Assembly: GCF_035917335.1 (NCBI RefSeq) | Contig: NZ_CP109067.1 | Coordinates: 3,657,001-3,721,000 of the forward strand | Source: Micromonospora sp. NBC_01813 | GTDB taxonomy: Bacteria; Actinomycetota; Actinomycetes; Mycobacteriales; Micromonosporaceae | Direction: 5' to 3' | DNA: 64,000 nucleotides | Shown: positions 7,196-26,673 of the stretch, piece after piece | Layout of the letters: every line of letters starts with the position of its first letter | Position numbering within the stretch: position 1 is the stretch's first letter | Made by a program: the position numbers and the translations under genes | Notes under the pieces: model-generated | The model's input: the letters and a program-made list of their open reading frames with translations, nothing else | What the model was told of the DNA's origin: nothing | The model's database searches: none

Positions 7196-8239
7196 GTGCC
7201 CGTACTTTGCAAACCTGCGGTTGCCGTTCCGGAATTCGTCGTCACGTTGGACGAAACACTCGAGCTTACCCGGCAGGTACATGCTGGCCACACAAAACTC
7301 TCTCTTGCGCTCCGCCTGATCGGCAATACCGGCGTTCTCAAACGACACATTGTTCAGCCGTTGCAAGAGACTTTGAAGCATCCGGGTCTCACCGAGCGCA
7401 CACAGATTTACGTCGAGCAGGCGATAGCTCGGATCCCACCAGTGGCCCAAGAGGCCATGCACAACGCGGATCTGCGTGCCGTCGACATCGACGCGATCGC
7501 CGTTGTCTCCTGCACCGGTTTCACCATGCCGCCGCTGAGCACTTGGATGATCAACAAGCTTGGCTTCCGCCTTGACACAGTCCAGATTCCTATCGCCCAA
7601 CTGGGCTGTGCGGCAGGCGGGGCCGCGATCGGACGTGCCTATGACTACTCGGTTGCCCATCCCGGATCAAACGTCCTCATCGTCGCTTGTGAGTTCTGCT
7701 CGTTGGGTTATCAGCCGACCGATCTCCAGGTAGGCAATCTGCTTTCCAACGGTCTCTTCGGTGACGCGGTGGCAGCGGTCGTGGTGGCGGGCCGTGATCG
7801 AAGTGGTCTGGTCATCGAGCGGGTCGGTTCAAGGCTTGTGCCCGACACGCAGGACTGGATCTCCTACCTGGTCAAGGAGACCGGTTTCCATTTCCTCCTG
7901 GACAAGCGGGTTCCCGCGACGATGAAGCAGCTCGCGCCGGAGCTGAAGGCATTCGTTTCGGAGACCTCCAGGTCGATCGATGAAATCGACCATTTTGTCA
8001 TACATGCCGGTGGGCCACGAATCCTCGATGATCTGTCGTTGTATCTAGGTATCGACGCGGAGAATTTCGACGTCAGCCGGCGGACACTACGTGAGTATGG
8101 AAATATCGCCTCCGCGGTAGTGCTCGATGTTCTTCGTCGGAAATTCGATGAGGCTGCGATGGTCGACGGAGAGACCTGCCTCCTGGCCGGTTTCGGTCCC
8201 GGTATCACCGCAGAAATGATGGTGGGCACGTGGCAATAA
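7196..8239 (+). CDS. rppA: Type III polyketide synthase, 1,3,6,8-tetrahydroxynaphthalene synthase
   Basis: 347 aa from the GTG at 7196, preceded by TTGGAG; this gives the RppA opening MPVLCKPAVAVPE. In RppA numbering the catalytic triad is intact: C138 (IAQLGCAAGGAA), H270 (FVIHAGGPRILDD) and N303 (REYGNIASAVVL). C106 (VVSCTGF) and Y224, which shape the THN synthase pocket, are also present. The enzyme condenses five malonyl-CoA to THN, which oxidises to flaviolin or melanin. It is the first gene of a three-gene operon with an AKR-NTF2 fusion and a P450. Codon use looks less GC-biased than in flanking genes, suggesting transfer. Confidence 0.95.
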   Translation: MPVLCKPAVAVPEFVVTLDETLELTRQVHAGHTKLSLALRLIGNTGVLKRHIVQPLQETLKHPGLTERTQIYVEQAIARIPPVAQEAMHNADLRAVDIDAIAVVSCTGFTMPPLSTWMINKLGFRLDTVQIPIAQLGCAAGGAAIGRAYDYSVAHPGSNVLIVACEFCSLGYQPTDLQVGNLLSNGLFGDAVAAVVVAGRDRSGLVIERVGSRLVPDTQDWISYLVKETGFHFLLDKRVPATMKQLAPELKAFVSETSRSIDEIDHFVIHAGGPRILDDLSLYLGIDAENFDVSRRTLREYGNIASAVVLDVLRRKFDEAAMVDGETCLLAGFGPGITAEMMVGTWQ

Positions 8240-8274
8240 GGAAGGGTTTTACCATCAGAACAGTGGGAGCTGAA

Positions 8275-9570
8275 ATGAAGAGAGATCTCGTCATCGGTGG
8301 CGATCTCAAGGTCAACCGTATCGGTTATGGCGCCATCAAGCTGACCGGACCTGGGTGTTGGGGACCACCGCGCGACCCGCAGGCAGCCATCAAGTTGCTT
8401 CGTCATGCGGTCGATCTGGGTGTCAACTTCATCGACACCGCAGATTCGTATGGCCCCGACTTCAACGAACAAATCATCCGCGAGGCCTTGCATCCGTACC
8501 CCGATGACTTGGTCATTTGCACGAAGGGGGGCTTGCTGCGGCGCGGTCCCAACGATTGGCGCGAGGGGAAGATCGTCGCTTGCGGTCGGCCGGCCTATCT
8601 GCGTCAGCAGGTCGAGATGAGCCTACGCAATCTGGGTCTGGACCGTATCGACCTCTACCAGCTGCACAGCATTGATCCCACGGTTCCGCTCGTCGACCAG
8701 GTGGCGGAGCTGCGCACGTTGCAGGAGGAGGGGAAAATTCGACACATCGGACTGTCATCGCAGCCTGGAGTCTCGATCGCTCAACTGGCCCAAGCTGCGA
8801 GCGTCGCACCTATCTCCTCAGTCGAAAATCTGTACAACGTCGCCGACCGTACTGACGAGGATGTCGTCCGATACGCGGAGAAACACGACATCGCCTACAT
8901 CTGCTACTGGCCCCTGGGCAGCGGTCGCCTCCTCGCGTCGCAGGGCGCTTTGAAGCGGATCGCAGACGATGCCGGGGTGACGCCCGCTCAGCTCGCACTT
9001 GCCTGGCTACTCCGCGACTCGCCCCGGACACTGCCGATCCCGGGAACGACGTCAATCGCACACATGGCGGAGAACATGCGGGCGCTGGAAGTCGTGCTCG
9101 ACGAGGGCAAGTGGGACGAGATCGGCGAACTCTGCAAGGACGAGGCACCTCAGCGGCCCACCGCACCGACCCGGCACCAGCCTGACGAACACCCCCACTT
9201 GGGCATGCTGCGAACGATTTATGCGGACTTCACCACCCTCGGGAACTACGCGGACGATGACATCGTCCTGCACCCGGCTTGGCGTACCGCGAGGGATCCC
9301 GGCGACCTGGTCGGGAAAGCCACCGCCCTGGCGCGACAGGACGCGCTGCTGAAGTCCCATCGCGGCACGATGGTGATGGAGGTGGAAAGCATAAGCGCCA
9401 ACGACAGATTCGGAACGGTGCTCGGCACCATACGCACCGAGTATCCGCAGGTCGCGGCAATTCCGTTCTGTGGAGTCTGGCGGTTCCGCAACGGCCGGAT
9501 CGTCGAGCACTGGGAAAACGCATACAACGCCCAGGACGATGTGCGAAAGCTGACTCAAGGCCATGAGTGA
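8275..9570 (+). CDS. Aldo/keto reductase fused to an NTF2/SnoaL-like domain
   Basis: 431 aa from the ATG at 8275, chosen for the GTGGGAG site upstream and the family-like opening MKRDLVIGGDLKVNRIGYGA. Residues 1-295 are an AKR barrel with the full tetrad D54, Y59 (NFIDTADSYG), K84 (ICTKGG) and H131 (YQLHSIDP), and a C-terminal NADPH site (PIPGTTSIAHMAENM). Residues about 310-425 are a separate NTF2/SnoaL-like cone (GTIRTEY...FCGVWRFRNGRIVEHWENAY). The gene lies 35 bases after rppA and overlaps the P450 by 8 bases. A role in reducing and then dehydrating or cyclising the naphthol product is inferred from context. Confidence 0.85.
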   Translation: MKRDLVIGGDLKVNRIGYGAIKLTGPGCWGPPRDPQAAIKLLRHAVDLGVNFIDTADSYGPDFNEQIIREALHPYPDDLVICTKGGLLRRGPNDWREGKIVACGRPAYLRQQVEMSLRNLGLDRIDLYQLHSIDPTVPLVDQVAELRTLQEEGKIRHIGLSSQPGVSIAQLAQAASVAPISSVENLYNVADRTDEDVVRYAEKHDIAYICYWPLGSGRLLASQGALKRIADDAGVTPAQLALAWLLRDSPRTLPIPGTTSIAHMAENMRALEVVLDEGKWDEIGELCKDEAPQRPTAPTRHQPDEHPHLGMLRTIYADFTTLGNYADDDIVLHPAWRTARDPGDLVGKATALARQDALLKSHRGTMVMEVESISANDRFGTVLGTIRTEYPQVAAIPFCGVWRFRNGRIVEHWENAYNAQDDVRKLTQGHE

Positions 9571-10783
9571 GGCCGAAACGCCGCGTAGTGCCGGAGTCCA
9601 GGACTGTCCCTTCCACCACGCCGATGGGCTCGAGTTCGACCCGCTGCTGTCGAGGCTACTCACCGAAGATCCAGTCGCACGTATTCGCATGCGGTACGGA
9701 ACCGAGGAAGCTTGGTTGGCGACCAGGTACCGCGACGTGCAAGTAGTCACCGAGGATCGTCGGTTCAGCCGGGCGGCCGGCGTCGGTCGGGACCTGCCGA
9801 GGATGACACCCGAGCCCATCGCGCACCCGGATGCCATCAACCTGATGGACCCGCCGGCCCACACACGTTTGCGTCGGGTCATCGCCAGCGGTCTGAGCCC
9901 TGGGGCAGTCGAGCGTCTGCGGCCCCGCGCCGAGCAAATCGTGGACAGGCTCCTGAATGAACTCGTTGCCGAGGGTGCGCCAGCGGACCTCGTTGGGCAC
10001 TTTTCCGACCATCTTCCCCTCGCGGTGATGAGCGAAATGTTCGGCATACCCGAGCAGGACCGTGACTGGCTGCGCCAGCGCACGATCTCGATCATGACCA
10101 TTGCGCCCGAGCGCGGCATTGCGGCAAGTGATGCGAAGGCCGAGTTGCGAGAGTACTTCACGGACCTGGTGGCACACCGCCGACGAGAGGGCGGCAACGA
10201 CCTCCTGAGCGCGATGTGCCAGGCGGACAGCACGGACGAGCCGCTGAGTGATAGCGAAGTGGCCATGCTCGGTCAGGTTCTCATGGTCGCGGGCCACGAC
10301 ACACTCACCTACGAGATCAGCAACATCGTTTATGTCTTACTCACCCACGAGGCTGTCCTGGCTCAGATCCGGGCTCGCCCAGAGCGGCTGCCCAGGGCGA
10401 TCGAGGAGCTGCTGCGCTTCATCCCGTTCCGGCAAGGCGTCGGCATCGCCCGGATAGCCATGGAAGACGTAGAACTCGGAGGCCGCTTCATCCGCGCCGA
10501 CGACACTGTGCACGTGTCCTATCTGACCGCGAACCGAGACGGCGAGGTCTTCCCTCAGCCGGACGAGATCGATGTGAACCGGACGCCCAAGCCGCACATG
10601 ACATTCGGGTACGGCCCACACCGTTGTCCTGGAGCTCAGCTGGCTCGCATGGAGCTGCAGGTGGCGATAGGGGCATTGCTGCACCGGTTCCCGAACCTGC
10701 GACTGGCTGTCGATCCAGACGACATCGAGTGGAACGCGAGCTCCATTTGGCGTTTTCCAGTCGCCCTTCCGGTCCGATGGTGA
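9563..10783 (+). CDS. Cytochrome P450, CYP158-like
   Basis: 406 aa. The I-helix oxygen motif is VAGHDTLTYE, the K-helix ExxR is EELLRF, and the heme-binding loop is FGYGPHRCPGAQLA with the Cys ligand near residue 355. The sequence resembles actinobacterial CYP158/P450mel, which couple flaviolin or oxidise THN products and whose genes commonly sit next to rppA. The start overlaps the AKR-NTF2 stop by 8 bases, so the genes are coupled. The actual oxidation (biaryl coupling or hydroxylation) cannot be read from sequence. No ferredoxin gene is nearby. Confidence 0.93.
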   Translation: MSEAETPRSAGVQDCPFHHADGLEFDPLLSRLLTEDPVARIRMRYGTEEAWLATRYRDVQVVTEDRRFSRAAGVGRDLPRMTPEPIAHPDAINLMDPPAHTRLRRVIASGLSPGAVERLRPRAEQIVDRLLNELVAEGAPADLVGHFSDHLPLAVMSEMFGIPEQDRDWLRQRTISIMTIAPERGIAASDAKAELREYFTDLVAHRRREGGNDLLSAMCQADSTDEPLSDSEVAMLGQVLMVAGHDTLTYEISNIVYVLLTHEAVLAQIRARPERLPRAIEELLRFIPFRQGVGIARIAMEDVELGGRFIRADDTVHVSYLTANRDGEVFPQPDEIDVNRTPKPHMTFGYGPHRCPGAQLARMELQVAIGALLHRFPNLRLAVDPDDIEWNASSIWRFPVALPVRW

Positions 10784-10884
10784 AGCCCGCAGTGCCGGCG
10801 CCGTGACCACGAACGCCTGATCGGATGGGGCGCCGGGGACCTGCTCGCCTGGCGCACGCGCGCACCGACCACATCTCACCCGGC

Positions 10885-10950
10885 GGACCGGCTTGGGGGT
10901 GGATCACCGACCAGCTCGGGGTCCACCCCGAGGCGTTGTGCCGCCGGGGT
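10885..10950 (+). pseudogene. Possible IS3-type OrfA remnant
   Basis: A short reading (WGWITDQLGVHPEALCRRGQV) resembles the HTH of IS3-family OrfA proteins (IA.QLGVHPEALRTWV). Only about 20 codons match and no ends are visible. It lies between the P450 and asparaginase genes, where a transfer boundary would be expected. Weak call. Confidence 0.3.
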
Positions 10951-10960
10951 CAGGTCGTGG

Positions 10961-11989
10961 CTACGCATCCGTACGGCTCGTTCCCGACCGGTCGTCGTCG
11001 CTGGTGGTGGTCCAGGGCCAGGCGGTGGGTTCGGCGAGTCCGCCCGCGGTGGTGACCGCGGCCGTGATGTCGTGTGGTTTCGTGTCGGCGGCGAGGAGGG
11101 CGCGGAGCAGGATGCGGGCCTTGTAGGGGTGGAGCCAGCCGGCGGGGATGAGACCACGGCCGATGAGGTCCTGCTCGGAGCCGGGGAAGCCGTAGGTGCG
11201 GGTGAGGGTCGGTCCGGCGGGGGTGCGGGAGGCGAGGACGACGGGGATGCGTCCGGCGAGGGTGGTGAGGGTGTCGACGAGGGGTTCGGGGACGTGGCCG
11301 ACGCCGAATCCGGCGATGACGAGGCCGTCGCAGTGCCGGCCGATGGCGTCGAGGATCGTGGGGTCGTCGTCGAGGGTGACGGTGTGCAGGGCGACGGTCG
11401 CGGTGTCTGCCCGGCGCGGGGCGGGGACGGTCAGCCGGTAAGGGACCCGGTTGAGCATCCGTACGGTGCCTTCGAGGACGTAGCCGAGGGGGCCGGTGTC
11501 CAGGGAGCGGAAGGTCGCGCCGCTGGTGGAGTGGGTCTTGGTCACCCAGCGTGCGGCGTGGATCTCGTCGGCGAAGGCGACGAGGCAGCCCTGGTCCCGC
11601 GCCTGCGGAGAGGCGGCGGTGTGGATGGCGGCGAGGATGTTCGCGGGTCCGTCGGCGCCGGCGAGGGTGGGGTTACGCATCGCGCCGGTGACGACGATCG
11701 GCTCGGGGCGGTGGTGGAGCAGGTCGAGCAGGTAGGCCGTTTCCTCGATGGTGTCGGTGCCCTGGGTGACGACGACGCCGGCCGCGCCGCCGGCCAGGGC
11801 GTGCGTCGCGGCGGTGTGCAGGTCGGTAACGTCGGCGACGGTGAGGCTCGCGCCAGGTCGGCGGCGGAAGTCGACGACTTCGACGGCGATTCGCGCGTCC
11901 GCGAGTCCGGGTACGGCGTCGACGAGGCCGGTGGCCACAGCCCGAGATCGACACTCTCGCACCAGGCCTCCACCATATTCAATCAGCAC
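10961..11989 (-). pseudogene. Asparaginase-family protein lacking the N-terminal nucleophile motif
   Basis: 342 aa from a GTG at 11989. The core of the L-asparaginase family is clear: the second catalytic motif TQGTDT (75-80) in VVTQGTDTIEETAYLLDLL, GAMRNPTLAGADGPANILAA, and the conserved Lys in VTKTHSTSG. The first motif, TGGTIA with the nucleophilic Thr, should lie just before residue 10 but the sequence there is VLIEYGGGLVREC, and in-frame sequence upstream does not restore it. The gene is therefore probably a 5'-truncated or decayed asparaginase, or a non-hydrolytic relative. It is divergent from the toxin-antitoxin pair. Confidence 0.7.
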
Positions 11990-15230: not shown

Positions 15231-16761
15231 CAATGCCGTTCAGATAGGGAGCGGGTTGAGGTCGGCGTGGTGAGCTGACGTCGATTGTGGAGGCCGGTAC
15301 GGTGGCTGGCCGTGACGTCATCGGTGGAGCAGCTGCCGCAGGGTCGGTTGACCGACCATATCGGGTTGGGTGTGGTGTCGGCCCGGTTCGGCCGTGACCT
15401 GCTGGAAGAGATCCTCAACCGCACGGGGCGGCGGGAGAAACGCTCGCGGCGGCTACCGGCACACGTGATGGTCCGGTACGTGATCGCGATGGGGTTGTTC
15501 TTCGCCGAGTCGTATGACGAGGTGATGCGCCGGCTGGTCGGTAACCTGCGCAAACTCGGCTCGTGGGACGACGACTGGCAGGTCCCGACCAAGTCCGCGA
15601 TCACCCAGGCCCGGCAGCGACTCGGGCCCGAGCCGATGAAAGCGTTGTTCGAGCGGGCCGCGGTGCCCCTGGCCGGTCCGGGCACGAAAGGTGCCTTCAT
15701 CGGCCGGCGCCGGCTGATGGCGATCGACGCGACCAGCTTCGACGTGGCCGACACCCCGGACAACGCCCAACGGTTCGGCCGGCTGGGCTCGGGGCCGAAA
15801 GCGTCGGCGTATCCGAAACTGCACGTCGCCGCTGTGGCCGAGTGCGGCAGCCACGCCATCGTCGGCGCGGTCCTCGGCGGGTGCCGTACCGGGGAACGGA
15901 CCCTGGCCGCCGACCTCACCGGCACGGTCGGGCCGGGCATGCTGGTGATGGCCGACGCCGGCCTGTACTCCTACGACCTGTTCAACCGGTACGCGGCCAC
16001 CGGCGCGGACCTGGCCTGGCGCATCGGCGCGTCGGTGTCGGTCGGGCACCTGAACTGGCTTGCGGACGGCTCCTACCACGCGCTGATCTACGCCCCCGGG
16101 CTGAGCGCCGCCCGTCGGGCGAGGCTGGCCGAACAGGCCAGAGCCGGCCACCAGGTTCCCGCCGAGCTGGCCCGCCTCGTGCGGGTGGTCGAGTACACCG
16201 TCCCGGACCGCAACCCCGACGGTGACCTGATCGTGGTGATCACCACCGTCACCGACCCGCACGACATCGACGCCCTCACCCTGGCCGAGGCGTACCACCA
16301 GCGCTGGGAAGAGGAATCCGCCCTCGACGAGATCAAGACCGACCTGCGCGGACGCGGTGAGGTCCTCCGTTCGAAGACCCCGGACCTGGTCGAACAACAG
16401 ATGTGGGGACTGCTACTCGCCCACTACGCCATCCGTGCTCTCCTGCTGGACGCCGCCGACCCCGCCGGCTACGACCCGGACCGCATGTCGTTCATCAAAG
16501 GCCTCCGCGTCGTGCGCCGCCAGGTCACCGACCAGGCGGCCATCACCCCCTGAGGACCTTTCCGAGGCCCTGACCGACGCGCTCACCGAGATCCGCCACC
16601 AGCCCAACCCGCCCCGCCGCCACCGGACCTGCCCCCGCGTCGTCAAACGCGCCCGCCACAACTCCTACCGCGTCAAACGCCCGACCGATCGGATCACCCG
16701 TCACCCCGCCCCACCCACACCGCACCTGGCCTGCCCAGACACCTCTATCTGAACGGCATTG
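15231..16761 (+). mobile_element. Complete IS4-family insertion sequence
   Basis: 1,531 bp. Terminal inverted repeats are perfect over 17 bp: CAATGCCGTTCAGATAG at 15231-15247 and its complement at 16745-16761. Both ends are flanked by the 10-bp duplication CCTCCTGAAC. It carries one rightward transposase gene filling most of the element and is inserted in the coding sequence of the XRE/TPR regulator, in the same orientation. Exact repeats and duplications indicate a recent insertion. Confidence 0.95.
15312..16752 (+). CDS. IS4-family transposase, +1 frameshift near the C-terminus
   Basis: The main frame (GTG at 15312; a TTG at 15285 is an alternative) runs to TGA at 16551-16553. DDE residues are visible: first Asp in MAIDATSFDV, second in MADAGLYSYD, and the IS4 signature Y-x2-R-x3-E-x6-K in YHQRWEEESALDEIK. 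The expected C-terminal tail (EDLSEALTDALTEI...RVVKRARHNSYRVKR) continues in the +1 frame and ends at 16752, inside the right inverted repeat. The switch lies at ATC ACC CCC TGA, either a one-base indel in a C-run or a +1 recoding site. If not recoded, the product is 413 aa without the basic tail. Confidence 0.85.
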
Positions 16762-17881: not shown

Positions 17882-20083
17882 CTAAACTGCGGCGTCTAGT
17901 ACTCCACTTTCCAGGGCAGCAGCCCGAATCTCGGCAAGATTTACAGGACGACCCTCACGAATTGCGCGCCAGACGGCCCAACCGTTGACCGCCCCCCTGC
18001 CGATCACAGTAGCAGCTGCCGGGGATGGCGAGTTAAAACACTCACCAGTTGGCAGCCCAACCTGTCCAGCCGTTGTTACCTCAGCCACATACTGAATACC
18101 TTTGTATCGCAGATGAATTTGTTCGCCTGCACGCAGGAAACCTACTTGCACCAATGACGCGACCGTGACTCCCGAGTAATGGGCTCTTGTCCGACTGACA
18201 ACAGAGACAGAGTCCCCAGACTTATTGGTTGATTCGGAACCAGTAATTCCAAGATCAACTGGATTCCAGACAAGTTCAAACAGGCGAAAGTACAGGCTTT
18301 GCCTCGTCTCGATAGCCTGCAAGTCAAATTGACCAAAAGGGCGAAAGACTTTTTGCAGAGAGTGTTTACGTACGACTCCTTCAGTGAAGGGCCTGTTTCG
18401 TTCATGCGTCGCTTTGTGCAAAGAAGCAGCAAGATGGTTGGTACTGCGGTACCACTCGATCTTTTTCTCATAAGGCGCATCCTGATAGCTCGCATTGTGC
18501 GACTTGCGCAACAACAGCAATGCGCCAAATCTGTTTCGATAGATTCGGAAGTCAGATTCGGTTCGCACAAGAGCCTGGTATCTGACAAATTTGTCGGCCC
18601 ATATATGCTCAATCTCGTAGGGCGCGGACCTATCAAGATATGACGCAATCTCATTCGGCTTGCCGCACTCAACCTCCACAAAAGCAGTTATCCTGGCTAG
18701 CAGGTATCGAACGTGGGATCGGTTATCCGGTCGAAGACCATAGGTTCTAAGGGCCGAGAAGTCGAGATCTGCGATTAGTGGGTGTCGCCCAAGGAAAGCA
18801 GTCACTTCATCGACATACTGGCATGCCCGCAGGCCAACAATAATGTCAAATAGCGTAGCATTGAAGGCCGAGGATTTCATCACGGAATTATTCACGATCG
18901 ACTGGGCGAATATTAGATCAAGGAAGCCGCCGACAACCTTGCACTTTGCACGAAATTGTGCATCAGTATCAGCTGGATCGAATGCAGCCATCAAGAACGG
19001 CATTTGGTCGATCTCGTTATACGAGTTGTAGTAAATATGCTCCAGGTCGGGGTCGAACCTCTCACAGGCAGCCCGCACCGTCTTGTAACGCTTAACGAGT
19101 CGCATCAAGTCGTGCTCAATGAATCGGGCATAATCAGCCGGGTTGCACAGGCCCATCTTTCCTGCTGCGTTCTCCTGAACCCATCCATGGAAAGAAACTA
19201 TGACATTCTCGGCATCTTTGTATTCGCTTGCATACCTACCGATCAACAGCACTTGAACAAAATCGGCCATACCAATACTATCCAGTTGATGCACCTCTGC
19301 CACGACGTTTCGCCAAGCCTCCCCCAGCCGGCCGAGGTTGTCGCTGTTCTTGGCCTTTCTAAGGAGGTAGCTTTTTAACAGATCGGCGGGACTCAACTGC
19401 ATCCCGCGATCGTTCATCGTCTCAAATATCTCCCACCCCTGCCGACGATCGACAGCATTGATTCCCACCAAGCAAACCCGATGCATCAACCAGTGAATGA
19501 ATAGCGGAAGAGCCTCATCGCGAACGTGTTCCGGGACGAAGTCGATGATATCGCCATATCTCTGGCTTAGATTATAGACAGAAGGTGTCGCGTCAGTCGG
19601 AACTTCGTAATCATCGCCTTCGTAAATAGCATCAAGTAGCGGCTTACGCTCATCAGATCGGATAGTGTACGAGCGCTCGCCATACAGGTAGCCAGCAACC
19701 AACGGCTCAATCGCCTCGGCATCTCTCTCATAGTCGTCAATCTTGCTATCGATCGCAATCCTGCGCAATTGAATTAAGATAAGATGGAGGGTGGAAACCC
19801 GCTGTTGGCCATCCACCAGCGACTGCAAGCCGTCATCGTCATAGTAAACGAAAGGCCCGAGGAAATATGCGCCGTAGTGGCGTACAGATTTCCGCTCATC
19901 GCCCGGCTTCCAATCAGCAAGAAAATGGCGAGTAAGATCAGTAACGAGCGCACCAACCTCCTTTCTGCCCCAGCTATACTCGCGTTGGTAAGGGTCAAGC
20001 TTGAACTGAAATCGCGAGAAGAGCTGTTGAACCGTAAGCCCTTCGCCACCAATGGGCGCCGTTGCCATCAGCAGTGAAGCCAT
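17882..20083 (-). CDS. DUF262-DUF1524 nuclease with RAMA-like C-terminus (GmrSD-like)
   Basis: About 733 aa from the ATG at 20083; GTG 20098 or ATG 20068 are alternatives. The DUF262 part has DPYQREYSWG and the ParB-like LVDGQQRVSTL. The DUF1524 part near residues 485-540 has an HNH-type centre (YEIEHIWADKF, then YRNRFGALLLLRKSHNASYQ). The last 100 residues (VASLVQVGFLRAGEQIHLRY, CFNSPSPAAATVI, NGWAVW) resemble the RAMA domain of restriction proteins. GmrSD-type proteins cut modified phage DNA. It lies 60 bases after hsdM, and base composition is visibly lower in GC than its neighbours, suggesting acquisition. Confidence 0.85.
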   Translation of the reverse strand: MASLLMATAPIGGEGLTVQQLFSRFQFKLDPYQREYSWGRKEVGALVTDLTRHFLADWKPGDERKSVRHYGAYFLGPFVYYDDDGLQSLVDGQQRVSTLHLILIQLRRIAIDSKIDDYERDAEAIEPLVAGYLYGERSYTIRSDERKPLLDAIYEGDDYEVPTDATPSVYNLSQRYGDIIDFVPEHVRDEALPLFIHWLMHRVCLVGINAVDRRQGWEIFETMNDRGMQLSPADLLKSYLLRKAKNSDNLGRLGEAWRNVVAEVHQLDSIGMADFVQVLLIGRYASEYKDAENVIVSFHGWVQENAAGKMGLCNPADYARFIEHDLMRLVKRYKTVRAACERFDPDLEHIYYNSYNEIDQMPFLMAAFDPADTDAQFRAKCKVVGGFLDLIFAQSIVNNSVMKSSAFNATLFDIIVGLRACQYVDEVTAFLGRHPLIADLDFSALRTYGLRPDNRSHVRYLLARITAFVEVECGKPNEIASYLDRSAPYEIEHIWADKFVRYQALVRTESDFRIYRNRFGALLLLRKSHNASYQDAPYEKKIEWYRSTNHLAASLHKATHERNRPFTEGVVRKHSLQKVFRPFGQFDLQAIETRQSLYFRLFELVWNPVDLGITGSESTNKSGDSVSVVSRTRAHYSGVTVASLVQVGFLRAGEQIHLRYKGIQYVAEVTTAGQVGLPTGECFNSPSPAAATVIGRGAVNGWAVWRAIREGRPVNLAEIRAAALESGVLDAAV

Positions 20084-20145
20084 TTCATTCCGACACACCT
20101 CGCCAAGTAATATTTCGAGCCGAAATTTCTCTTACAGAATGCCAC

Positions 20146-21633
20146 TTACTCGACACCTCTTATTCTCATGTCATCGGCGATGGCCGCGAACTCGCGTAGG
20201 GCGGCTTGTAGGTCTTCGACGATCTCCTGGGCGATAACCTCGGGGGGCAGCAGCGCGTCGGCGTCCTCCAGCGAGGCGTCCTTCAGCCAGGTGATGTCCA
20301 GGTTGACCTTGTCCCGGCTCAGCAACTCGTCGTAGTCGTACGCCCGGAACCGCTCGCTCTCCACCCGCTCGGCCCGGTCCTTGCCCGGCAGGTAGCAGTC
20401 GACGAACTCCTGCAGATGCTCCCGCCGCAGCGGGTTCTGCTTGAGCGTGAAGTGCTGGTTGGTGCGGAAGTCGTACACCCAAAGCTTGGTGGTCCACGGC
20501 TCCTCGCGGGCGCGCTTGCGCTCGAAGAACAGGACGTTGGCCTTGACCCCACCGGCGTAGAAGATGCCGGTCGGCAGCCGCAGCATGGTGTGCAGGTCGT
20601 ACTGCTTGAGCAGCCGCCGCCGGATCGTCTCCCCTGCCCCACCCTCGAAGAGCACGTTGTCAGGCAGGACTACCGCGGCCCGCCCGTCGATCTCCAGCAT
20701 CGAGGCGATGTGCTGCACGAAGTTGAGCTGCTTGTTCGACGTCGTCGCCCAGAAGTCGGCGCGTTCGATCTCCCGCTCCTCGCGGCTCGCCCGCCCGTCC
20801 TCGCCGATCATGCGGATCGACGAGCTACGCCCGAACGGTGGGTTGGCCAGCACCAGGCTGACCTTGCCGTCCGGCTCCCGCCCGAGCGAATCCCGGACGT
20901 CGATCAGCGACGGGCCGCTCGGCGTACCGATGCCGTGCAGCAGCATGTTCATGGCCGCGAGCCGCGCGGTGCCGTCGACCAGCTCGGTGCCGGTGATCCC
21001 GCCGTTGGCGAGGTGCCGGGCCTGGTCGCGGGTCAGGCTGTCGCCGTGGTGCCGCTGGATATGGTCGTACGCCGACAGCAGGAACCCGCCGGTGCCGCAT
21101 GCCGGGTCGGTGATCGTGTCGCCCGGGGTCGGTTGCACGCAGTCGACGATCGCCTCGATCAGCGCACGCGGCGTGAAGTACTGCCCGGCACCCGACTTGG
21201 CGTCCTCCGCGCCCTTGGCCAGCAGTTCCTCGTAGGCGTCGCCCTTGACGTCGACGCCAGCCTGCGACCACTGCTCCTTGTCGATCAGGTCGACGATCAG
21301 CTTCTTGAGCTTCGCCGGGTCCTGGATCTTGTTCTGCGCCTTGCGGAAGATCGTGCCGAGCGTGCCGGACTCCTGCCCGAGCCCGCGCAGGATGTTGCGG
21401 TACTGCACCTCCAGCCGGACACCGTCGCTGTCGAGCAGCGTCTGCCAGCTCAGGTCCGCCGGCACGATCTGCTCCGCCTTGAGCGCACGGTTGGCCCGCT
21501 CGTGGGCCATCTTCAGGAACAGCAGGTACGTCAACTGCTCCACGTAGTCGATCGTGGAAACCCCGTCGTCGCGCAGCACGTCGCAGTAGTTCCACAGCTT
21601 CTGCACCAGCCGGCGCGAATCCACGTTGCTCAA
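20146..21633 (-). CDS. hsdM: Type I restriction-modification system methyltransferase subunit HsdM
   Basis: 495 aa from a TTG at 21633 that overlaps the hsdS stop (TTGA). N-terminal HsdM helices (RRLVQKLWNYCDVLRDDGVS) precede the N6-adenine methylase core: GQYFTPRALIEAIVDCVQP, the SAM-binding DPACGTGGFLLSAYD and the catalytic NPPFG. The length is normal. It forms the methylation core with HsdS and the full restriction complex with HsdR, all in one leftward operon. The DUF262 gene follows, making a fourth operon member. Confidence 0.95.
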   Translation of the reverse strand: MSNVDSRRLVQKLWNYCDVLRDDGVSTIDYVEQLTYLLFLKMAHERANRALKAEQIVPADLSWQTLLDSDGVRLEVQYRNILRGLGQESGTLGTIFRKAQNKIQDPAKLKKLIVDLIDKEQWSQAGVDVKGDAYEELLAKGAEDAKSGAGQYFTPRALIEAIVDCVQPTPGDTITDPACGTGGFLLSAYDHIQRHHGDSLTRDQARHLANGGITGTELVDGTARLAAMNMLLHGIGTPSGPSLIDVRDSLGREPDGKVSLVLANPPFGRSSSIRMIGEDGRASREEREIERADFWATTSNKQLNFVQHIASMLEIDGRAAVVLPDNVLFEGGAGETIRRRLLKQYDLHTMLRLPTGIFYAGGVKANVLFFERKRAREEPWTTKLWVYDFRTNQHFTLKQNPLRREHLQEFVDCYLPGKDRAERVESERFRAYDYDELLSRDKVNLDITWLKDASLEDADALLPPEVIAQEIVEDLQAALREFAAIADDMRIRGVE

Positions 21634-23027
21634 AGCGGCAACTCTCCCTGCTGAAAATCGGTCCCAATCGCCCTGGTCGCGGGCGCTGCCAGTTCCTTGG
21701 CCGCACGCCGACCCCGCTGCTTCGGCACCACCCGCTGCGCCCGGATGCGCGCCAGCAACTCCGACGCCGGCTCATCCGCCGAATCCTGCTCCACCAACCG
21801 CCCCGCAAACGCCTCCACCAGCAACGCCTCACGAAGCTGCCCAGCCCTCACCTTCGCGAGCTGGACCGAGTCCGCCAGCCGAGCCAGCCCATCCAGCCGC
21901 TCCTTGGTCTGCGCGACAATCGCCCGCTGCTCCTCTATCGGTGGCACGGGGAATTCGACTTCCTTAAAGCGACTTGCGGACAGGTGGGCGATGTTCGTAG
22001 TAATTCGCACTTCCTTCATGAAACGCCCTGCGTGCATGTGCCTGCGAAACACCAGCAGCGCCCACGCAGGATCGATACCCTCGTGTGCCCTGAACCGCAG
22101 CAGACTGTTGGTGAAGGCCATTTCCGCTGGCTCACCCTGGTACACGGCGGGTCGCCCGAGGTACTCCGGGCTCTGCCCCTCGTTCAGCAGGATGTCGCCA
22201 GGCGTCAGCCGGAAACGCTCAAACACCTCGGGCGGAAAGTCCATCTGCATGACATCGCGCAGATCGATTCGATCCTCGAAAACGTTGGCCACTCGCAGGT
22301 ACGGCCGCATGTTCGGCCCGGTGTGCCAGTCTGGATGGCGTTGCCGTCCGAGGTCCACCTTGCCGGCCTGGCCGACCGTCAGCACTCGCCATCCAGGCCT
22401 GCCAGTCGCCGGCACCGACTCAACCAACACCCGCTTCGAAAGCAGCTTCAGCCGAACACCGCTTGCCAACACATTCTCTGTAGCTGCACTGACATGCGAG
22501 AGCAGACTCTCGATCTTCGTGACGATGCGGCGCTGCTCGGCGAGTGGTGGGACTGGGATGTCCATCTCCAGCAGGGCCTGTTGGGAGATGTTCCGCATTG
22601 ACTCCTGCTGGCCGGTTGACCGCTGAGAGATCTGGCGTCGGATGCTCGGCGAGGACAGTGCGTGGAGCAGCCACTTCCGGTCGATCTCGTTAGCGACTAC
22701 CAGGCGGAGGCTCTTGTCGCTGAGCAGCAGTCGCGGTCGGCAGCTGTGCACGAGCACCGGCGCTCCCACGTACTCCACGGTGTTTGCTCGGCTGACGAGC
22801 AGGTCTCCCGGCGCGATCTCGTGGCGTGGGTCGATCCCCCGGCCATCGGGCACGGCCTTGTTCTCCGACTCACGGAACTCTCCCCAGGTCATCGCGCTGA
22901 CCTTGATGACGCCCCACTCGTCGTCCCGTGCCGGCCGAGGCTCGCAGGTGAACGACTTGCCTGCCTCGATCCGGGTGACGATGTCCCGCAGCTTTGCCCA
23001 TTCCCAGCCTGAGGGGAGGTCGCTCAT
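21630..23027 (-). CDS. hsdS: Type I restriction-modification specificity subunit HsdS
   Basis: 465 aa from the ATG at 23027 (MSDLPSGWEWAKLRDIV), overlapping the hsdR stop by 4 bases. Two target-recognition domains are each followed by a conserved helical spacer: PVPPLAEQRRIVTKIESLLS near the middle and PVPPIEEQRAIVAQTKERLD near the end, followed by a long Leu/Arg-rich helix. Two halves imply a bipartite target sequence that cannot be predicted here. The C-terminal tail (PKQRGRRAAKELAAP) is basic. A much longer open frame extending upstream is only an antisense-like overlap with hsdR. Confidence 0.94.
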   Translation of the reverse strand: MSDLPSGWEWAKLRDIVTRIEAGKSFTCEPRPARDDEWGVIKVSAMTWGEFRESENKAVPDGRGIDPRHEIAPGDLLVSRANTVEYVGAPVLVHSCRPRLLLSDKSLRLVVANEIDRKWLLHALSSPSIRRQISQRSTGQQESMRNISQQALLEMDIPVPPLAEQRRIVTKIESLLSHVSAATENVLASGVRLKLLSKRVLVESVPATGRPGWRVLTVGQAGKVDLGRQRHPDWHTGPNMRPYLRVANVFEDRIDLRDVMQMDFPPEVFERFRLTPGDILLNEGQSPEYLGRPAVYQGEPAEMAFTNSLLRFRAHEGIDPAWALLVFRRHMHAGRFMKEVRITTNIAHLSASRFKEVEFPVPPIEEQRAIVAQTKERLDGLARLADSVQLAKVRAGQLREALLVEAFAGRLVEQDSADEPASELLARIRAQRVVPKQRGRRAAKELAAPATRAIGTDFQQGELPL

Positions 23028-26000
23028 GCCGCCAGTTCCTGGTTGAGTTCGGTGATGAGGGGTTCGGCGCGGTCGTTGCCGAAGGCTCGGACGTACCCGT
23101 CGATGCCGCCGCGTTCGGTGAACGGGGCGCCGTCCAGGTCGTCGGGGGTGACGGCAACGCTTGCCGCTATCACGTTCTTGATCCTTTCCAGCCACCAGAC
23201 TTGCTCGGGGGTGAAGGTGGTGCCGGCCTGCTCCTGGCGGAGCAGCCATCCTTGGAAGCGTTCTTCGACGACCGTCCGATAAGGGCGCAGCTCCTGGTCG
23301 AGGTCGAGTTCGTAGCGGATCAGGGTGATCAGGTCGGTGACGCCCCGGTCGCCGGGGGCTTCGGCGGTGCGGCCGAGCAGCACGTACGCCTCCCACAGCC
23401 GGTCCGGGGTCCAGGCCTGCGGGGGTCGGGCGATCCGCGCCGCCAACTCTTTGAGCTGGTCGAAGTCGACCCGGCCTTTGCCGTCGAAGAAGACCTGCAA
23501 CGCGGTGATCTCGTCGCGGTGTTCCTCCAGGTACGCGTGCCAGCTGTGGACGACCTTTTGAGCACGTTCGGCGGCCGGCACCCCGGCGGCCGAGACCAGC
23601 CGGTCGGCGTTGACCTCGTCGATGGTGATGTCGTGGGCGCGGCGGATCTCCAGGATGCGTTGCCGCAGCTCCGGTGCGGCGGCGAGCGGCCGGAGGGCTT
23701 CGGCGAGCAGGTCGCGGACCGCGTCGGGGCCGGCGGCATGCGCGGGGATGAGCGCTTCGGGGGCGACGGCGTCGGTGAGCCGGCGGGCGATGGCGGCCAG
23801 GGGTTGGCCGTCGGCGAGGTCGGTCAGCTCGGCGCGTTCGTCGTCGGTGAGTTGGCGGTCGAGCCGGGCCAGTCGGGCGGCCAGGGTCGCCACCTCGTCG
23901 GCGTCGGCGGTGAGGGTGCCGGCTTTGCCGAGCAGTTCCTTCAGCGAGATCTGTGCTTCGGTGCGCCGGTGCAGCGGCACCGCCTCGTCCAACTCCTGTT
24001 CGGTGACGCCGACCGCGTCGACGATGACGAACCGGTCCTTGACTTTGGCGTCCGGGGTGACGGATTGGAAGTCGGCGGGGTCGATGGTGCGGGCGCCCCG
24101 GCCTTTCATCTGCTCGAAGTAGGTGGCGGTGCGCACCGGGCGCAGGAAGAAGACGCATTCGAGCGGCCGTACGTCGGTGCCGGTCGCGATCATGTCGACG
24201 GTGACGGCGATCCGCAGCTCCGGGCTGTTGCGTAGCGCCTGGATCAGCTCGTCGGGGTTGTCGCCGTTGCGCCGCGACGCGTACGTGATCTTGGTGGCGA
24301 AGTCGTTGCCGCGGCCGAAGATGTCGCGGACCATTTTGACGATCTCCTCGGCGTGGTTGTCGTCCACCGCGAAGATCAACGTCTTGGGTACGGTCGTGCG
24401 GCCGGGGAAGATCTCGGTGAAGAGTCGATCCCGGAAGGTCTCCAGCACCAGTTTCAGCTGCCCCTTGGAGATCACCGACCGGCCGAGGTCCTTCGCGGCG
24501 TAGCTGAAGTCCTCCTCCAGCTCCTGGTAGCGCTCGGCGCGGGTCCGCCGGTCGCGCAGCGGCACCACCGTCTTCGCCTCGATGGTCGCCCCGGCGTCGC
24601 TGATCTCGGTGCGGATCCGGTAGACGTCGAAGCCGACGTTGACCCCGTCGGCGACCGCCTGCTCGTAGGTGTACTCCGAGACCAAATTTTGCTGGAAGAA
24701 GCCGAGGGTCTGCTTCACCGGCGTGGCGGTCAGCCCGACCATGAACGCGTCGAAATACTCGAGCACCGCCCGCCACTTGCCGTAGATCGACCGGTGGCAT
24801 TCGTCCACGATGATCAGATCAAAAGCTTCCGGTGGGATAGCCGGGTTGTAGGCGACCTGCGCCGGTTCGTCCAGGTCATAGCTGTCGTATGCCTGGTCGT
24901 CGACGTCGACGTCCGGCAACTCCCGGCCGGCCAGCGCGCCGTACAGCCGCTGGATCGTGGAGATCACCACCGCCGACGAGTCGAGCATGCCCGCCCCGGC
25001 CAGCCGGTCCACGTTGTACAGCTCGGTGAACTTGCGCCCATCCCCCGGCGCGGCGAACCCGGCGTACTCGCGCAGCGTCTGCCGGCCCAGGTTGTTGCGG
25101 TCGACCAGGAACAGAATGCGGGTCGCCTTGGCGTGCCGCAGCAGCCGATAACTGCTGGTCACCGCCGTGTACGTCTTTCCGGCACCAGTAGCCATCTGGA
25201 TCAGTGACCGGGGGCGGTCGGCCGCCAGCGCGCCTTCGAGGCCGCGTACCGCGTCGATCTGAGCCTGCCGCAGCCCGTCCTCCGCAAGTGGCGGCAGTTG
25301 CCGCAGCCGGGCCCGCAGCGTCGGTGCCGCCGGGTCGTCGGCCGCCTCCCGCATCCACCGCGCGAGCGTCTCCGGCCGGTGAAAAGCAAAAACCTCCCGG
25401 GTACGCGGCTGCGGGTCCAACCCGTTGACGAACGCCGTCTCGGTGCCGGTGGCGACGTAGCCGAACGGCAGCGGCGCGTCCCGCCGCCAGGCCGACATCC
25501 GCTGCGCGGCGGTCAGCCCGCGCAGGTAGCGGTCCAGCTGCGCCTCCGCGCCACGCGGCGCGGTCCCCTCCCGCTTGGCTTCGATCACCCCGACCAACTT
25601 CTGCTGTACGTAGAGCAGGTAGTCGGCCCGCCCGGTGGCCAGAGTCACCTCCCGTACGGCGACACCGGTCCCCGCGTACAGATTGATCTGGGTTTCGTCC
25701 TGGACCTGCCAGCCGGCGGCGGTGAGCTGCCGGTCGATCTCGGCCCGGGTCTGCACCTCGTTGAGCGGCTCGGCCGACGCGCGCCGGGCGCGGCTGATGA
25801 ACGCCTCGCGCTTGGCCGCCGACACCTTGACCGGTTCGCGGGCGGCGAACTCCGCGCTGGCCGCCGTCATCTGCGGCTCCAGGTCGGCGACCAGCTCGGC
25901 GGCGACCGTACGGCGGGCCGCCGACTCGGTGACCGCCCGGTCGGCCGCGGCCTCGGCGACGACGCGGGCCGCCGCCACCGACGGCTCCCCGTCGAGCAGC

Positions 26001-26521
26001 AGTTTCGCCTCGGCCAACTCCTGGCGGTAGCGGTCCAGCTCAGCTTGCAGGCCGGCGACGATGCTCTGTGGCACCTGCTGCGGTGGCGGGCTGGGTGGCA
26101 CGAAACCGATCGGGCTGCGGTCGTCGGTCAACGCCCGGTGGAACCAGATGCCCAGCTCGAAGCAGTCGCGCAGCATCTCCAGCGCGGTTCGCACCTGGTC
26201 GAGGTGGTCGTGCACCGCCTGGTTGCCGACCTTGCGCAGCCGGGTGAACGCGTCGAAGACCTTCGGCACCAGTACGCCGGCCGCGTTCAGTGCCTGCACC
26301 TGGTGGTGGAAGCTGCCGTCACTCGTCCTGGTGCCGGTGCGATGCACCAGGTCACGGGCCATGGTGTCGCCGAAGGCGCGCGCTTTGAACATTGACGCCT
26401 GAGCGTCCACATAGATTAGCGACTCGGTGCCCACGCCGTAGAAGACCAGCAACGGATGATCCACAAGGAACCCGAAGTTGGCGGACTGGTTGGCGAGCCT
26501 ACGAATACGCTGATGATCCAC
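23024..26521 (-). CDS. hsdR: Type I restriction endonuclease subunit HsdR
   Basis: 1,165 aa if started at the GTG at 26521 (VDHQRIRRLANQSANFGFL), which has GGAGAG just upstream; the open frame extends to 26659 but that leader is not family-like. Domains: DUF4145-like N-terminus (to about 150), coiled coil (about 160-240), nuclease domain (near 265-360), and an SF2 motor with Walker A MATGAGKTYTAV near 445, DECH in IIVDECHRSIYG near 572 and GLTATP, then a helical C-terminus. It translocates and cuts unmethylated DNA. First gene of the hsdRSM operon, whose order differs from the common hsdRMS. Confidence 0.94.
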   Translation of the reverse strand: MDHQRIRRLANQSANFGFLVDHPLLVFYGVGTESLIYVDAQASMFKARAFGDTMARDLVHRTGTRTSDGSFHHQVQALNAAGVLVPKVFDAFTRLRKVGNQAVHDHLDQVRTALEMLRDCFELGIWFHRALTDDRSPIGFVPPSPPPQQVPQSIVAGLQAELDRYRQELAEAKLLLDGEPSVAAARVVAEAAADRAVTESAARRTVAAELVADLEPQMTAASAEFAAREPVKVSAAKREAFISRARRASAEPLNEVQTRAEIDRQLTAAGWQVQDETQINLYAGTGVAVREVTLATGRADYLLYVQQKLVGVIEAKREGTAPRGAEAQLDRYLRGLTAAQRMSAWRRDAPLPFGYVATGTETAFVNGLDPQPRTREVFAFHRPETLARWMREAADDPAAPTLRARLRQLPPLAEDGLRQAQIDAVRGLEGALAADRPRSLIQMATGAGKTYTAVTSSYRLLRHAKATRILFLVDRNNLGRQTLREYAGFAAPGDGRKFTELYNVDRLAGAGMLDSSAVVISTIQRLYGALAGRELPDVDVDDQAYDSYDLDEPAQVAYNPAIPPEAFDLIIVDECHRSIYGKWRAVLEYFDAFMVGLTATPVKQTLGFFQQNLVSEYTYEQAVADGVNVGFDVYRIRTEISDAGATIEAKTVVPLRDRRTRAERYQELEEDFSYAAKDLGRSVISKGQLKLVLETFRDRLFTEIFPGRTTVPKTLIFAVDDNHAEEIVKMVRDIFGRGNDFATKITYASRRNGDNPDELIQALRNSPELRIAVTVDMIATGTDVRPLECVFFLRPVRTATYFEQMKGRGARTIDPADFQSVTPDAKVKDRFVIVDAVGVTEQELDEAVPLHRRTEAQISLKELLGKAGTLTADADEVATLAARLARLDRQLTDDERAELTDLADGQPLAAIARRLTDAVAPEALIPAHAAGPDAVRDLLAEALRPLAAAPELRQRILEIRRAHDITIDEVNADRLVSAAGVPAAERAQKVVHSWHAYLEEHRDEITALQVFFDGKGRVDFDQLKELAARIARPPQAWTPDRLWEAYVLLGRTAEAPGDRGVTDLITLIRYELDLDQELRPYRTVVEERFQGWLLRQEQAGTTFTPEQVWWLERIKNVIAASVAVTPDDLDGAPFTERGGIDGYVRAFGNDRAEPLITELNQELAA

Positions 26522-26673
26522 AACTCTCCACAGGGGTATGAAACCGGTGCAGAACGCCAGAGCATAGCCGCGCTTCTCGATGGGCCGCCATCCTCCGGCG
26601 ACATTCAATTCATGCCGCTTCGGCCCGGCCCGCCGCGACGATGCGGTGGCGGCAGCCACCTACCGTCGACCAG

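Follow-up and report, generated by a model that had tools for sequence, protein, structure and literature searches.

An aldo-keto reductase fused to a SnoaL-like domain, encoded between a tetrahydroxynaphthalene synthase and a cytochrome P450 in Micromonospora sp. NBC_01813, with a likely role in naphthol reduction and dehydration

A stretch of 64,000 nucleotides from Micromonospora sp. NBC_01813 (contig NZ_CP109067.1), referred to here as the window, contains three closely packed genes in which a single protein, combining an aldo-keto reductase (AKR) with a SnoaL-like NTF2 domain, is encoded between a 1,3,6,8-tetrahydroxynaphthalene (THN) synthase and a cytochrome P450. The features of this cluster are as follows:

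7196-8239, + strand: rppA, THN synthase, a type III polyketide synthase (347 aa, GTG start; assigned by phmmer to 1u0m)
8275-9570, + strand: AKR and SnoaL-like NTF2 fusion protein (431 aa; assigned by Pfam; intact in genome G003 at 94% identity)
8275-9135, + strand: AKR domain, residues about 1-287 (tetrad D54/Y59/K84/H131; nearest solved structures 8hnq and 8te8)
9136-9186, + strand: linker, residues about 288-304 (site of an ATGA two-gene overlap in G015, locus L045, and G891, locus L082)
9187-9567, + strand: SnoaL-like NTF2 domain, residues about 305-431 (conserved Y316, D318, D329, H333, D377, H412 and E414)
9563-10783, + strand: cytochrome P450 (406 aa; nearest solved structures 6kzs/6kzt), starting inside the last codons of the fusion gene

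The gap between rppA and the fusion gene measures 35 bases and holds a ribosome-site-like GGGAG, upstream of the ATG at 8275 that is the likeliest start of the fusion. At the other end, the stop of the fusion gene overlaps the start of the P450 gene (ATGAGTGA). Given the flanking genes (B_lectin and RibD_C proteins upstream, an asparaginase downstream), the cluster was taken to consist of these three genes only, and a single biosynthetic operon appears to be the best explanation of their arrangement. Their G+C content of 58-64%, against 69% for the window, together with the absence of a THN synthase at 1e-95 from the five other genomes of the genus that were searched, suggests that the cluster was acquired.

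Both parts of the fusion are matched by Pfam profiles above their cut-offs, Aldo_ket_red at residues 15-286 (214.8 bits, cut-off 24) and SnoaL_2 at residues 318-412 (34.2 bits, cut-off 27). When numbered from the ATG at 8275, the four tetrad residues fall exactly at D54, Y59, K84 and H131, in agreement with an earlier note on this DNA that had described one protein with this tetrad and an NTF2/SnoaL-like domain. The same-genus genome G003 carries the fusion at 94% identity over residues 1-431, with rppA and the P450 gene in identical order. Of the 431 codons (1293 nt), 35 differ synonymously and 27 non-synonymously between the two copies, and neither copy has an insertion or deletion relative to the other. 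The fusion is therefore genuine, and this in-frame copy excludes a sequencing artefact or a chance fusion. Crude ratios of non-synonymous to synonymous change (dN/dS) between the two copies are 0.24 for the AKR part and 0.18 for the NTF2 part; both domains are under purifying selection.

Beyond these two genomes, the fused form was sought more widely. In a search of 151 genomes, the window's own among them, G000 and G003 are the only ones with a match over residues 1-431 among the best-scoring matches listed. On plasmids, none of 385 AKR-matching records (1e-40) contained a single stretch covering 80% of the query, and no plasmid record matched the NTF2 domain alone at 1e-5. Viral contigs, with 34 pattern loci, yielded one AKR (L075) and two distinct SnoaL proteins (L113 and L090, the latter copied in L092); a weak NTF2 stretch from the same source (L086) was not used. 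The earlier note knew of no described bacterial example of such a fusion in a THN synthase cluster, and among the papers listed by topical searches of the open-licence PMC literature, judged mostly from abstracts, none was recognised as describing one.

The first gene encodes a well-preserved THN synthase. Among 128 matched PDB sequences, the best solved relative of RppA is the Streptomyces coelicolor enzyme 1u0m, with 473 bits over residues 3-347 compared with 140 bits for the runner-up. The catalytic residues C138, H270 and N303 lie exactly where the earlier note had placed them, and C106, Y224 and A305 (in NIASAV) are kept as well. Residue 171 is glycine in both the window and the G003 copy; among the 26 THN synthases compared it is cysteine in 23 and leucine in one (L063), and G171 may possibly indicate altered handling of the polyketide. 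The crude dN/dS of rppA between window and G003 is 0.12. According to a review, RppA makes THN by itself (PMC6274091).

The third gene encodes a P450 with intact motifs for heme binding (FGYGPHRCPG), ExxR (ELLR) and the I-helix (AGHDT), and with a crude dN/dS against G003 of 0.18. The earlier designation as CYP158-like proved loose, since 6kzs (485 bits) is nearer than 4z5p (335) or CYP158A2 (322). Both the closest structure and the motifs place the protein among the THN synthase-linked coupling P450s of the 6kzs type. According to PMC11476836, 6kzs is a biaryl-coupling P450 of S. griseus whose compound is unknown; we infer that it corresponds to RppB/P450-mel. PMC4640377 describes an rppA-linked P450 that cross-links THN and is also needed for THN formation. 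P450s with 57-58% identity adjoin rppA in L061 and L062 without an AKR-NTF2 pair, which indicates that the coupling enzyme is independent of the pair.

The two halves of the fusion also occur as separate proteins in the same setting. Separate, adjacent AKR and NTF2 genes follow rppA in the same order in L009 (a Pseudonocardia metagenome-assembled genome), L045, L082 and L083, and the fusion thus unites two genes already neighbouring at rppA. THN synthase, AKR and SnoaL-like protein are thus encoded together at six loci, fused in the window and in G003 (L044) and separate in the other four. An ATGA overlap holds both the stop of the AKR gene and the start of the NTF2 gene in G015 and G891, while the genes lie apart in L009 and G996; the overlapped arrangement is a small step from fusion. 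The survey of rppA neighbourhoods proposed in the earlier note recovered the fusion in G003, and elsewhere the pair as individual genes.

To describe how widespread this arrangement is, several genome sets were considered. A first survey of 22 THN synthase loci comprised 13 from the window's family (L044-L056), eight from seven genomes of genus g83, taken for Streptomyces (L057-L064), and L009; the pair adjoins rppA at three of them (L009, L044 and L045). In the window's family, THN synthase (1e-95) is present in 14 of 354 genomes, three of which (window, G003, G015) have the pair. In g83, THN synthase occurs in 142 of 246 genomes, and three of the 246 were matched at 1e-10 by a four-row NTF2 profile, twice beside rppA and an AKR (L082, L083) and once without rppA (L084). 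In the last case, an AKR-NTF2 gene pair at L084 2140-5074 is followed by a different P450 of 515 aa on an 8.2-kb contig, with a transposase-like open reading frame (ORF) upstream, judged by eye. A class-wide draw found the NTF2 domain at 1e-15 in its own genome alone (1 of 236). The family search with the NTF2 profile at 1e-7 gave 14 of 354 genomes, five of them strong (170-254 bits); in two of these five, G225 and G071, the 20 kb read holds the domain but neither an AKR gene nor rppA. Judging by these occurrences, the rppA-AKR-NTF2 module is rare yet recurrent and present in at least two families. Directly after the module in L083 stands a gene for an acyl-CoA carboxylase-type carboxyltransferase (10127-11725), which would perhaps fit the use or supply of malonyl-CoA.

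The AKR itself carries marks of specialization. Its nearest solved relatives are AKR13B2 (8hnq) and pyridoxine 4-dehydrogenase (8te8), and the AKR part of the structure model shows alternating strands and helices in a barrel-like arrangement. In a tree built by a quick method, with long branches flagged among the distant AKRs and without L010 and L011, which duplicate rows already included, all seven NTF2-adjacent AKRs form one clade (7/7 rows; Shimodaira-Hasegawa-like approximate likelihood ratio support 99), apart from 35 other AKRs. Members of this clade are NTF2-linked in seven of seven cases and rppA-linked in six of seven. They share two insertions, one at about 96-101 and one of QP at 163-164, along with glutamate at position 184, where E is found in 7/7 pair-linked and Q in 29/29 close other AKRs, a count that omits six distant AKRs of the own genome. 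The canonical glutamine at 184, which we take to be the residue binding the nicotinamide amide, is thus replaced, while the superfamily profile and the D-Y-K-H tetrad are retained. With its own clade, two insertions and E184, the AKR of the fusion is, as judged from its sequence, a dedicated form, and the same tree and changes exclude a housekeeping AKR that is here by accident. The pair-linked rows are also clustered on the RppA tree (3 of 500 shuffles were as low), yet they do not form a single branch (three changes).

Together with the unfused pair behind rppA in four genomes, this clade makes the link to THN well supported, and both the AKR and the NTF2 part belong with the THN synthase. 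The confident NTF2 fold and the conserved polar residues of the second domain speak for this as well. Reduction and dehydration of THN is accordingly put forward as the likeliest role of the fusion, in line with the earlier proposal that it reduces THN to a scytalone-like compound and then dehydrates it. More specifically, the operon probably converts malonyl-CoA through THN, reduction and dehydration by the fusion, and coupling of the resulting naphthol by the P450. Given its family and residues, RppA would condense malonyl-CoA to THN, which the AKR domain would reduce with NADPH to a scytalone-type dihydronaphthalenone. The SnoaL-like domain would remove water from this intermediate to give 1,3,8-trihydroxynaphthalene. 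A second round could then lead via vermelone to 1,8-dihydroxynaphthalene (DHN), a series of steps with precedent in the DHN enzymes of Sorangium cellulosum, and the P450 may couple naphthol units oxidatively, as other THN synthase-linked P450s do. The fullest version of this route, in which one polypeptide carries out both rounds from THN to DHN, passes the AKR product on to its SnoaL site, and lets three genes suffice for a P450-made deoxygenated perylenequinone, is offered tentatively, as a possibility that falls short of being probable.

An alternative is that the AKR and NTF2 parts act on an RppA-released intermediate before its aromatization, or merely detoxify quinones of the pathway. 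This broad AKR type is common, with matches at 1e-60 in 99 of 151 genomes, and three bacterial ketoreductases reduced tetralones yet failed on every aromatic compound tested (PMC7154522). Set against this are the THN formation by RppA alone noted above, the distinct, NTF2-tied and largely rppA-tied AKR clade, and the report that the bacterial naphthol reductase is an AKR rather than a short-chain dehydrogenase/reductase (SDR) (PMC7154522). We regard this as the least probable of the readings considered here.

Kinship of the NTF2 domain with scytalone dehydratase is not supported. The SnoaL_2 profile (PF12680) was matched in all ten domain members, whereas Scytalone_dh (PF02982) was not among the 11 families matched by any of them at E<=1, although HMMER filters drop most matches that are weak. 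The best profile matches of the domain are IdmH (6.7e-8) and 1tuh (6.8e-6). AlphaFold modeling of the whole fusion gave a mean predicted local distance difference test score (pLDDT) of 60, with mostly 30-56 in the NTF2 part, and was not used for this domain; the domain alone, modeled with four sequences, reached a pLDDT of 81 and a confident NTF2 fold. In VIA-align comparisons of this model, SnoaL-like, IdmH, KSI, LEH, AclR, KstA15 and SnoaL2 chains lay within about 2 Z units of one another. These near-ties leave the modeled fold undecided among dehydratase, hydroxylase and cyclase, and the best 50 of 1000 chains included no scytalone dehydratase entry, which excludes none of these functions. 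Close relatives of the domain with Q replacing E at 414 are encoded at L079 11859-12233 (G225) and L080 10971-11345 (G071); an SDR considered as the conserved partner of the orphan domain in L079 was dropped, being missing from L080.

If the domain were without catalytic function, the AKR would be the sole enzyme and the NTF2 part would bind or protect an intermediate, as is reported for ActVI-ORFA. PMC11315284 describes an NTF2 protein that directs flux and has no part in cyclization, and, in our reading of the alignment, H107 of SnoaL has no obvious counterpart while D121 aligns with E414. This reading is nevertheless very unlikely in view of the purifying selection on the domain and the conservation of D318, D329, H333 and D377 in 10/10 relatives and of H412 in 9/10.

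The main rival to a dehydratase is a SnoaL2-type hydroxylase. In such a two-component oxygenation, the AKR would convert the naphthoquinone flaviolin into a hydroquinone able to react with O2, while the SnoaL-like part would steer that reaction to a hydroxylated product, as in SnoaW/SnoaL2 and KstA16/KstA15. PMC12281474 describes both outcomes for this type of pairing, with ChaX/ChaU as a reductase and a SnoaL-family dehydratase, and SnoaW/SnoaL2-type systems performing reduction and hydroxylation. Like the system proposed for the window, these combine an NAD(P)H reductase and an NTF2 protein of the SnoaL family, with an aromatic polyketide as substrate; they differ in using SDR reductases instead of an AKR, separate proteins, and tetracyclic type II substrates. 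The SDR nature of these known partners speaks against oxygenation, as do the AKR precedent on the same substrate, which is a THN reductase (PMC7154522), and the best profile matches of the domain, which are not hydroxylases. We therefore consider oxygenation unlikely, and reduction followed by dehydration remains the preferred reading.

This preferred reading has counterparts elsewhere. The proposed chemistry resembles fungal DHN-melanin synthesis with its tetrahydroxynaphthalene (T4HN) reductase and scytalone dehydratase, the latter also of NTF2 fold; the fungal reductase is an SDR in contrast to the AKR here, and the window's NTF2 domain is not Scytalone_dh by sequence. Closer still, S. cellulosum is said (Sone, 2018) to make DHN from an operon, soceCHS1-bdsA-bdsB, that joins a THN synthase with a SnoaL-like dehydratase. 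Its AKR, and not an SDR, reduces both T4HN and trihydroxynaphthalene (T3HN), while no enzyme able to reduce either was found in S. coelicolor (PMC7154522). The chemistry itself thus has a bacterial precedent. The likeness is one of description, and the window differs in its single AKR-NTF2 protein, the P450 that follows and its actinobacterial host. The S. griseus rppA-rppB genes, which serve oxidative aryl coupling, share the THN synthase with an overlapping P450 gene, and the window's P450 is nearest to S. griseus 6kzs (PMC11476836); there THN itself is said to be cross-linked (Funa 2005; PMC4640377), and the passages on that operon name neither a reductase nor an NTF2 gene.

What is new, then, is that AKR and NTF2 are fused, that a P450 of the 6kzs type accompanies them, and that the fusion occurs, rarely, in actinobacteria, the two-enzyme chemistry already being known from S. 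cellulosum. If the proposed route is correct, DHN-type naphthol synthesis in bacteria extends beyond a myxobacterium, rarely, into actinobacteria, and evolution has merged two tailoring enzymes into a single protein. That the two are fused argues strongly for activities that work together. The fusion would provide a compact three-gene route and tie a SnoaL-family domain to possible naphthol dehydration, and the dedicated AKR clade, with E184 and two insertions, offers a marker for finding similar operons.

Outside the cluster, positions 15239-16761 of the window have no counterpart in G003, where the matching flanks meet (L044 1123 and 1139). An ORF inside this stretch (15285-16553) resembles an IS4-type transposase by eye, and the stretch is probably an insertion element. 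Further downstream, - strand ORFs at 17882-26659 resemble by eye a type I restriction-modification set, with a methylase-like ORF (20146-21633), a helicase-like ORF (23024-26659) and a further large ORF (17882-20098).

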